Positions 3,157 to 5,787 of a stretch of DNA of 23,514 bases are shown here, in pieces. This DNA is from a virus. The notes below the pieces were generated by a model. The model made no database searches, had not been told where the DNA came from, and saw only the letters and a list, made by a program, of their open reading frames with translations. Made by a program: the position numbers and the translations under genes. Position 1 is the first letter of the stretch, and every line of letters begins with the position of its first letter. Where the stretch lies: positions 1-23,514 of the IMG/VR virus record IMGVR_UViG_3300047463_000108; one strand, written 5' to 3'.

Positions 3157-3492
3157 ATGGCTGGTAACTTTAGCGTAGTAAGCCCGTGGTTCTCATCGGG
3201 GACGATCTCTGCGGACTACACGAGCACCCCGTTCAATGTCGGGATGTTCGATAGGTTCGCATTCCAATACAACCTGACTGGCACCCTGGCAGGAACTTTC
3301 AAGCTCCAGGCATCTATTGACGATCTAAACTATGTCGATGTCCCAGACAGCCAACTTACGATCACATCCCCAAACGTCTACCTTATCTCGGTGACGGACT
3401 TTGCCTACCGGTACATCAAGGCGACTTTCAAGCGCGTATCTGGCACCGGAGAGATCGTCGCAACCATCAGCACAACCAATCTACAGAACTAA
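3157..3492 (+). CDS. Small beta-rich virion-associated protein, paralogue A
   Basis: A 111-residue protein with no membrane segment and strand-like composition throughout. It shares a pattern with the product of 3792-4130: FNVG(M/G)F near residue 27, GT(F/L)KLQ(A/G)S followed by an N(Y/W)xD(V/I) motif near residues 46-60, and a Y(R/Q)(Y/F)(I/V)(K/R) motif near residue 85. This kind of small beta-sandwich, with a KLQ-S-D-N-W core, is common among phage structural genes and resembles lectin-like or discoidin-like folds, but the exact role is unknown. It follows the fibre-like gene after a 41-base gap and its stop codon TAA is one base before the next ATG, so it is probably cotranscribed with both neighbours. 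No clear ribosome site is seen upstream. Confidence 0.7.
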   Translation: MAGNFSVVSPWFSSGTISADYTSTPFNVGMFDRFAFQYNLTGTLAGTFKLQASIDDLNYVDVPDSQLTITSPNVYLISVTDFAYRYIKATFKRVSGTGEIVATISTTNLQN

Positions 3493-3791: not shown

Positions 3792-4130
3792 ATGGCATCG
3801 TATGCTGTTTCGCCGCTCGATGTAGCTGGTGATATGTCTGGTAGCTTCAACGGAACCTCGTTCAATGTGGGCGGATTCCATGATGTGGCTGTTTCGAGTG
3901 TTGTTACCTCTGCCTCAGCCCTTAACGGAACCCTGAAGCTCCAAGGATCTGTGGATGGGACCAACTGGGCAGATATCAGCGGTCTTACCGGAAGCATCAC
4001 CGCAAACGGGACGACGATCTATAAAGTAAATGCAAATCCTTACCAGTTTGTTCGCCTTGTTTGGACGAGCAGTGCTGGTTCTGGAACCTTGAATTCCAAG
4101 GTTGGCACCGTCATGACGGGCCGATTCTAA
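3792..4130 (+). CDS. Small beta-rich virion-associated protein, paralogue B
   Basis: A 112-residue beta-rich protein, diverged from the product of 3157-3492: both have FNVG(M/G)F, GT(F/L)KLQ(A/G)S, N(Y/W)xD(V/I) and an aromatic-basic motif near residue 85. Here the core has the DGTNWAD form often seen in phage beta-sandwich proteins thought to sit on the virion. Start at 3792 is one base after the upstream TAA. The duplication with an unrelated gene in between suggests that an original gene was copied and the 98-residue gene inserted between, or that the pair was copied and one partner lost. A role as a decoration or tail-appendage protein is inference only. Confidence 0.7.
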   Translation: MASYAVSPLDVAGDMSGSFNGTSFNVGGFHDVAVSSVVTSASALNGTLKLQGSVDGTNWADISGLTGSITANGTTIYKVNANPYQFVRLVWTSSAGSGTLNSKVGTVMTGRF

Positions 4131-4134
4131 AAGA

Positions 4135-4140
4135 AAGGAG
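4135..4140 (+). promoter_or_regulatory. Strong Shine-Dalgarno site for the 21-residue peptide
   Basis: AAGGAG lies 9 bases before the ATG at 4150, immediately after the stop of the preceding gene. It is the best ribosome site between 3100 and 5700 and is the main reason to believe the tiny ORF that follows is translated. Confidence 0.7.
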
Positions 4141-4149
4141 AATATTACC

Positions 4150-4215
4150 ATGGCTAAGAAAACTGCAAAGAAAGCTGCCAAGAAGGGCGGCAAGAAGATG
4201 AAGAAGGCTTGCTAA
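4150..4215 (+). CDS. Lysine-rich 21-residue miniprotein
   Basis: A very short ORF encoding MAKKTAKKAAKKGGKKMKKAC and ending in TAA. Ten of 21 residues are lysine, arranged as KK pairs separated by Ala, Gly or Thr, like the tails of histone H1 or bacterial HU-related proteins; a single cysteine is the last residue. AAGGAG sits 9 bases upstream, ideal spacing. It lies in the 94-base gap between the stop of the beta-rich gene and the terminase start, so no larger gene explains it. The charge suggests binding to DNA, RNA or another acidic partner, and its place directly before the terminase suggests a link with DNA packaging or condensation; both are inference. It could instead serve mainly as a leader whose translation feeds ribosomes to the terminase start 9 bases downstream, which lacks its own good ribosome site. 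Confidence 0.6.
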   Translation: MAKKTAKKAAKKGGKKMKKAC

Positions 4216-4224
4216 TTAAGCAGC

Positions 4225-5787
4225 ATGAACGCTGATATCTACCTAGAACGCTTCAAGGCAATGAAACGCGACCCTTGGGAGTTCGCCACTAAGATGGTGT
4301 TCACCAAGGACGAGGTTGACCGCATCAACCCGATCAAGCGTTTCCCTGCCAACCTTCAGTATCAGAAGCTGTACATGCGGATTTGGCAGAAGTTTCCCAA
4401 AGTCGCTGTGCCCAAGTCGCGTCGTATGATGATGTCTTGGACGAACATTCTTCTGTATACCTGGGACACCCTGTTCAATGTAGGTCGTCAACAAGCGTTT
4501 GTGTCTAAGAAGGAAACCGATTCGCACGAGTTGATCGAGCGATCGAAGTTCATTTTGGAGAACTTAGACTTTTCCTACTGTCCAAAGGAGCTGTTTCCTG
4601 CTTGGAGCTGCAAATTCGGTGAACTGGCATTTAAGGAGACTGGTTCTCGTCTGTTGGGATTCCCGTCGGGCGCGGACCAGCTCCGTCAGTTCACCTTCTC
4701 GGGGCTGCTATTCGACGAGGCGGCCTTCTGGGAGAATGCGGAGGAAGCCTATTCCTCAGCCGTCCCGACCATCGAAGGTGGTGGAAGGCTTACCCTGATC
4801 TCCTCACCTGCCCCAGGATTCTTTAAGAACATCGTATTTGACCAGCTGGACGATGGGCACAGGCGCATCTCGCAGCCCGAACACTTCCCTCTCGACCGAT
4901 TCCCGATGGAGGGAGTCGAGGTGTGGCAGAACCCCAGCAACAAGTTTGTTGTCTTTCAGCTTCACTACAGCGCCGACCCAAAGAAGCGCGATCCGAACTG
5001 GCTCGAAAACATCCGTTCCTCGATGAGCAGTGCCAAGTTCAATCAGGAGTACAACCTTCAATGGGACACCTTCCACGGGAAACCCGTATTCCCAGACTTC
5101 TCCGAACGGCTGCACTGCGTAGAGCATGCATCTCCCGAGCTTGGGCTCCCATTGATCCTTGGCATTGACCAAGGTCTAAATGCAGCCTGTATCGTCTGTC
5201 AGGTGCAGGGGGACAGGTTTGTTATCCTCAAGGAGATCCTTGGGGTGAACATGGGGGCCGAGCGATTCGTTGAAAAGGTCTGCTCCGAGCTGTCTGTCAG
5301 CTTTCCTGAGTGGCATGACTATTCATCCAAGTACCTTGTATTCATGGATCCTGCCGGATTCAGCAGGCGGGATGTGGATGAGCGCACATACGCCTCAGTT
5401 TGGGCCAAGAAGGGCTTTAAGCCCATGCCAGGGCCAATGCTATGGGAAGAGCGCAGACAGGCCGTAGAGAACCTCCTATTGCGCCAGAACAAGGACGGTC
5501 CATGCTTCCAGGTCGTAAAAGGCGAGGCTCCAACCATTGTGCGTGGATTCATGGGCGGCTATCGGTACAATGACAAGCATTTCGAGATGGAGCCGTCAAA
5601 GATCAGGCCATTGAAGGATGAGCATTCCCATCCTCATGATGCGCTCCAGTATGCTGCCGGTGGTTTCTATAGGACTAAAACTAAGACTGGAAAACTTGGA
5701 ATTCCTGAGCTGAAATACTCCAAGTACCAAGAGAAGAAGGTGGAAAATGGACCAAAAGGATATCAATTCAAACACGATCGACGATGA
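4225..5787 (+). CDS. terL: Terminase large subunit (packaging ATPase/nuclease)
   Basis: The motor that pumps phage DNA into the procapsid through the portal and cuts it. The length, 520 residues, is normal. The N-terminal ATPase has a Walker A region at residues 64-71, KSRRMMMS, lacking the usual Gly-Lys; a Walker B motif, LLFDE, at 161-165, with D164/E165 as metal and catalytic residues; and a coupling segment, TLISSPA, at 190-196. The C-terminal RNase H-like nuclease has D315 in ILGIDQG, D375 in FMDP and D472 in HPHDALQYAAGG, the usual acidic triad. No strong Shine-Dalgarno is seen before the ATG at 4225; the 21-residue ORF ends 9 bases upstream, so translation is probably coupled. The 3' end overlaps the portal gene by 41 bases. 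No small subunit gene is recognisable beside it. Confidence 0.93.
   Translation: MNADIYLERFKAMKRDPWEFATKMVFTKDEVDRINPIKRFPANLQYQKLYMRIWQKFPKVAVPKSRRMMMSWTNILLYTWDTLFNVGRQQAFVSKKETDSHELIERSKFILENLDFSYCPKELFPAWSCKFGELAFKETGSRLLGFPSGADQLRQFTFSGLLFDEAAFWENAEEAYSSAVPTIEGGGRLTLISSPAPGFFKNIVFDQLDDGHRRISQPEHFPLDRFPMEGVEVWQNPSNKFVVFQLHYSADPKKRDPNWLENIRSSMSSAKFNQEYNLQWDTFHGKPVFPDFSERLHCVEHASPELGLPLILGIDQGLNAACIVCQVQGDRFVILKEILGVNMGAERFVEKVCSELSVSFPEWHDYSSKYLVFMDPAGFSRRDVDERTYASVWAKKGFKPMPGPMLWEERRQAVENLLLRQNKDGPCFQVVKGEAPTIVRGFMGGYRYNDKHFEMEPSKIRPLKDEHSHPHDALQYAAGGFYRTKTKTGKLGIPELKYSKYQEKKVENGPKGYQFKHDRR

Follow-up and report, generated by a model that had tools for sequence, protein, structure and literature searches.

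A conserved lysine-rich miniprotein gene directly ahead of the terminase large subunit gene in a lineage of uncultured phages

We identified a 21-residue, lysine-rich miniprotein encoded directly before the gene of the terminase large subunit (terL) in a 23.5-kb virus fragment, the whole of which (23,514 nucleotides) was analysed and is called the window here. Comparison with relatives shows that the reading frame is coding and conserved, has a ribosome site of its own and is inherited together with terL. The miniprotein is real and belongs to a class of phage miniproteins that is poorly described; the function given for it here is a reasoned guess. The reading that we favour, with confidence evenly poised between acceptance and doubt, is a translated, disordered miniprotein of the late head and packaging module of an uncultured short-tailed phage lineage, which would bind DNA non-specifically beside a normal small terminase. 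The gene is below the usual length cut-off of gene finders and was hence missed. The features of the window are as follows.

3792..4130, plus strand: upstream neighbour, a 112-residue F5/8C-like protein, absent from some relatives that have the miniprotein
4134..4140, plus strand: ribosome-binding site AAAGGAG of the miniprotein, from the sequence and from AGGAG or GGAG before the counterpart ORFs of clade-A relatives
4150..4215, plus strand: lysine-rich miniprotein ORF, 21 residues, MAKKTAKKAAKKGGKKMKKAC, from the sequence, the counterparts before terL in relatives and the codon-position bias
4210-4212: codon of the terminal Cys
4216..4224, plus strand: 9-base gap between the miniprotein stop and terL, best fold −5.0 kcal/mol, lacking the hairpin of nine relatives
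4225..5787, plus strand: terL, terminase large subunit, 520 residues (PHROG 2, E 8e-27)

The ORF starts with an ATG at 4150, runs for 21 codons and stops with TAA at 4213-4215. Its product contains 10 Lys among 21 residues and a Cys at the C-terminus, with no acidic residue and a net charge of +10. These values agree with the initial annotation, which had described a complete ORF that is nearly half lysine and ends in Cys. Its AAGGAG site was also found, as AAAGGAG nine bases before the ATG, and the poor ribosome site that it had noted for terL was borne out, since none is clear before the ATG at 4225. The late module of the window runs from a tail-fibre-like gene through an F5/8C-like gene, a 99-residue gene and a second F5/8C-like gene to the miniprotein, terL, and the portal-like, scaffold-like and major capsid protein genes. 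The two F5/8C-like small proteins (3157-3492 and 3792-4130), on either side of the 99-residue gene, are paralogous (30% identity) and form part of an exchangeable tail side.

Relatives were collected from IMG/VR, and clade A was defined as the distinct contigs with a terL at least 68% identical and a readable gap (n = 8). A Lys-rich ORF of 20-66 residues, preceded by AGGAG or GGAG, stands directly before terL in seven of these eight contigs (the window, L001, L002, L005, L006, which is near-identical to L007, L008, and L011). L004, inside the same close terL clade, has no Lys-rich ORF before terL. In a second terL clade of about 45% identity (L047, L049, L194), all three members carry the ORF, and the ORF is missing from this position in many relatives whose terL is around 45-50% identical. 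The absences in L004 and in these more distant relatives indicate that the miniprotein is not essential. In a tree of 50 terL proteins, the carriers fall in two fully supported clades (6/7 and 3/3 carry the ORF; L011, with only a terL fragment, was left out of these counts). Both carrier clades are nested in a larger group that is otherwise without the ORF, which would fit a single gain followed by losses as well as two gains.

The initial annotation had proposed comparing this gap among related phages, and both the KK-rich frame and the ribosome site proved to be kept before terL; the frame persists across length changes, and a ribosome site precedes the ORF in each relative. Between L001 and L008, identity is 93% in the ORF, 92% in the following gap and 87% at the start of terL, and 40% in the 150 bases upstream. 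Judged from these comparisons, the ORF travels with terL and the tail-side upstream gene is swapped freely. Other small basic genes also occupy this position: L195 has a 65-residue ORF that ends three bases before terL (826) with the C-terminal sequence KPRPKRRRRRRRR, an arginine counterpart, and L203 has a different basic small gene, ending in TTKKPAKKAK. Cultured phages include no close relative (best terL 37%, best capsid protein 30% identity), making named phages unusable for comparison; inspection of the corresponding regions of Hodr, Rollin, and MEP301 added nothing. The genome_contigs collection contained no terL relative and ten capsid relatives, L220 at 53% and the others at 33% or less.

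Chance was ruled out as the origin of the ORF by shuffling of the window together with the conservation in relatives. The real window has exactly one ORF of 18-70 codons with at least 40% Lys, and none arose, with or without a ribosome site, when the entire window was shuffled 200 times with its dinucleotides preserved. Among three independent pairs (window-L005, L002-L008, and L047-L049), 33 of the 55 differences lie at third codon positions (binomial P = 4.6e-5), a bias of the kind sought by the comparison of synonymous and nonsynonymous changes that had been suggested initially. The comparison is limited by short, low-complexity sequences and by pairwise alignments built on protein, which favours identity and biases simulations of amino-acid identity; the third-position count, taken from the same alignments, is less affected and was preferred. 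Conserved Lys and Ala residues are encoded by differing codons, with AAA and AAG mixed at conserved lysines.

To locate similar genes, we scanned 144 distinct contigs (1.42 Mb) for ATG-initiated ORFs of 13-70 residues with a ribosome-site match, at least 25% Lys and a net charge of at least 0.3 per residue. The scan returned 24 ORFs, none on the minus strand: 11 directly before terL, 8 between the portal and capsid genes, and 5 elsewhere. A simple repeat pattern applied to the relatives' whole records was too strict and missed true members. The following Lys-rich small ORFs of the placement scan lie between portal and capsid genes; those of L188 and L198 stand between the portal gene and an 85-residue gene.

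L188:5839-5883, MAKKKTKKKMAKKK
L198:1426-1488, MATKKTVKKSSKKPTPKKGC
L102:6945-7076
L037:4466-4513

Other phage contigs also encode Lys-rich miniproteins (MYGKK..., L242-L320), which resemble the window peptide in length (mostly 15-40 residues), ribosome site, KK periodicity, and terminal Tyr or Cys. They differ in their gene neighbours, which include endolysin, tail, scaffold, terL, and portal genes, and kinship with the window peptide is not implied. The presence of such peptides beside endolysin and tail genes in unrelated phages favours a general role among late genes over a terminase-specific one. Near-pure oligolysine ORFs (MYGKKVMKKKKKKKGKKKK and similar) also occur 3' of a 150-residue gene in L243, L248, L259, L274, L289, and L295; this gene matches endolysin phrog_894 in L243, and a similar gene is present in L299.

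The ends of these peptides carry a signature that is new and far above chance. We compiled a non-redundant set of 54 Lys-rich miniproteins, of which 15 belong to this lineage and 39 were among the matches listed by an IMG/VR pattern scan, whose pattern left the terminal residues and position 2 unconstrained. In this set, with its IMG/VR part taken among the matches listed, the last residue is Cys in 8/54 and Tyr in 12/54, position 2 is Tyr in 11/54, and Tyr or Cys fills 5 of the 1223 inner positions. Of the ordinary genes on the same contigs that have a ribosome site, 0.4-1.3% encode a C-terminal Cys and 1-4% a C-terminal Tyr. Redundancy was removed at 80% identity among equal lengths only, making the P values (down to 1e-15) too good, and the effect is large. 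Within the lineage of the window, 5 of the 15 miniproteins have a C-terminal Cys.

A disordered 21-mer, as this peptide probably is, with ten lysines and no acidic residue would be expected to bind DNA (or RNA) non-specifically, and the late packaging neighbourhood favours DNA. A histone-tail-like role in DNA binding is plausible from the low-complexity K/A/P/G make-up of these ORFs, and oligolysine peptides have been used for DNA condensation (PMC4015834). In the mechanism that we propose, the paired lysines would bind the DNA backbone irrespective of sequence, and the bound peptide would neutralise or condense the phage DNA, or keep it close to the motor and portal, while packaging proceeds. 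Through the C-terminal Cys or terminal Tyr that many members have, the peptides may pair or stack on DNA, and the peptide may also be present in the virion. It would act alongside a normal small terminase, and the initial suggestion that it stands in for a missing one was abandoned. A small-terminase candidate, L007:2-514, matches PHROGs 2538 (E 2.2e-4) and 10899 (E 3.3e-5) and lies 5' of the tail-fibre gene, about 4.5 kb from terL, a position that in the window would fall past the left edge. Its homologues occur in L002 and L008, both peptide carriers, and in many phages lacking the peptide; such coexistence indicates that the peptide is not a TerS replacement. The 21-residue, low-complexity peptide likewise has no folded HTH or oligomerization domain and matches nothing in PHROGs, Pfam, or NCBIfam.

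The best rival, which has a documented precedent in a short-tailed phage, is a portal or tail-channel virion protein like T7 gp7.3; in the tail channel, the DNA end is encircled by the N-terminus of gp7.3, which is unresolved and carries mostly positive charge (PMC11784390). The basic disordered chain would wrap the DNA end and exit ahead of the DNA at ejection. The T7-like order of the window (portal, scaffold-like gene, capsid protein, then large late genes) and the Lys-rich ORFs immediately 3' of the portal gene in L188 and L198 are consistent with such a role, but gp7.3 has a resolved tail-binding C-terminal part without equivalent in peptides of 14-30 residues, and we consider this reading unlikely. 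It is distinctly unlikely that the peptide is directed at the host, as a cationic binder of RNA or ribosomes, an agent of nucleoid takeover, or a lysis helper at the inner membrane: similar peptides follow the phrog_894 endolysin in other phage contigs, yet in this lineage the gene belongs to the packaging module rather than to lysis, and the non-lysine face, Ala and Gly, is weakly hydrophobic.

A regulatory leader, in which translation of Lys codons near a hairpin would tune readthrough into terL by attenuation or coupling and the peptide itself would be idle, appears improbable. Strong hairpins (−16 to −25 kcal/mol) lie between the miniprotein ORF and terL in nine relatives, where 33-64 bases separate the two. 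Their positions are as follows.

L001:2592-2627
L047:3204-3262
L194:2435-2498
six other relatives

The hairpin arms have wholly different sequences in the two terL clades, so that the structure, not the sequence, recurs, and their tails are only partly T-rich. This arrangement suggests that transcripts usually terminate after the peptide gene, or that transcription enters terL by readthrough. The hairpins, the 9-base gap of the window and the lack of a ribosome site at terL would suit a leader. Nevertheless, an attenuator requires a terminator hairpin and an alternative fold, and the window lacks the hairpin (best fold of its gap, −5.0) while no alternative antiterminator fold is evident among the predicted ones. 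The AAA/AAG mixture at conserved lysines, conservation at the peptide level, relocation 3' of the portal gene, and the C-terminal Cys/Tyr signature also speak against it. Simple ribosome coupling is disfavoured by a hairpin between the ORF and terL, and the initial idea of a mere coupling leader is weakened by the hairpin and 33-64 bases in nine relatives and by the conserved peptide sequence. Finally, we regard as very improbable a purine-rich DNA element, such as a packaging site, that is open by accident. AAGAARGC-type repeats adjoining terL would fit one, but third-position-biased changes at conserved residues, the ribosome site in each relative and a frame that survives length changes rule out a pure DNA element.

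The favoured reading of a DNA-binding packaging miniprotein has a wider bearing. DNA of dsDNA tailed phages is usually thought to be packaged against cations and polyamines; with a conserved oligolysine protein produced next to the motor, a protein counter-ion or DNA handler would join them. Phage genes below the usual length cut-off are an easily missed class. As a tentative and unlikely extension, tailed phages of several lineages may share an overlooked class of 14-66-residue oligolysine proteins, capped by Tyr or Cys and encoded among packaging and late genes, which would act as protamine-like condensers paired or cross-linked via their ends in packaging or in the capsid.

No family library describes these peptides; PHROGs, Pfam, and NCBIfam gave nothing for the window peptide, and our literature search found no account of phage Lys-rich miniproteins. 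A PDB search was also negative. The 66-residue version of L011 had no match in a phage protein search and weak ones, both below cut-off, to Pfam HC2 (E 2.6e-4) and NCBIfam histone H1-like (E 7e-4), with 21.6 bits against a cut-off of 40 for HC2 and 19.8 against 80 for NF038053. With low-complexity sequence, weak profile matches of this kind reflect composition, and neither the window peptide nor L011 reaches the model cut-off for histone H1-like or HC2 membership.

Among known systems, the phiX174 J protein and the microvirus DNA-packaging peptides are likewise tiny, strongly basic and without a folded domain, with the gene among capsid genes, and the window peptide (+10 in 21 residues) shares their charge, shortness and lack of a fold. 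J is packaged with single-stranded DNA in a tailless virus, whereas the phage of the window is tailed, has dsDNA and uses a terminase motor. Adenovirus mu and the bacterial HC2, AlgP, and histone H1-like tails are short Lys/Arg-Ala-Pro low-complexity chains that condense DNA; the L011 version has similar KRPAAKKAA repeats, although the window peptide matches none of the HC2/H1-like families and L011 does so only below their cut-offs. T7 gp7.3, similarly, is a small protein of a podovirus virion, and a disordered, positively charged part of it lies around DNA, but the protein is much longer, has a tail-binding C-terminal end and showed no homology to the window peptide. On the best reading, phiX174 J, adenovirus mu, and T7 gp7.3 would be the closest analogues in mode of action.
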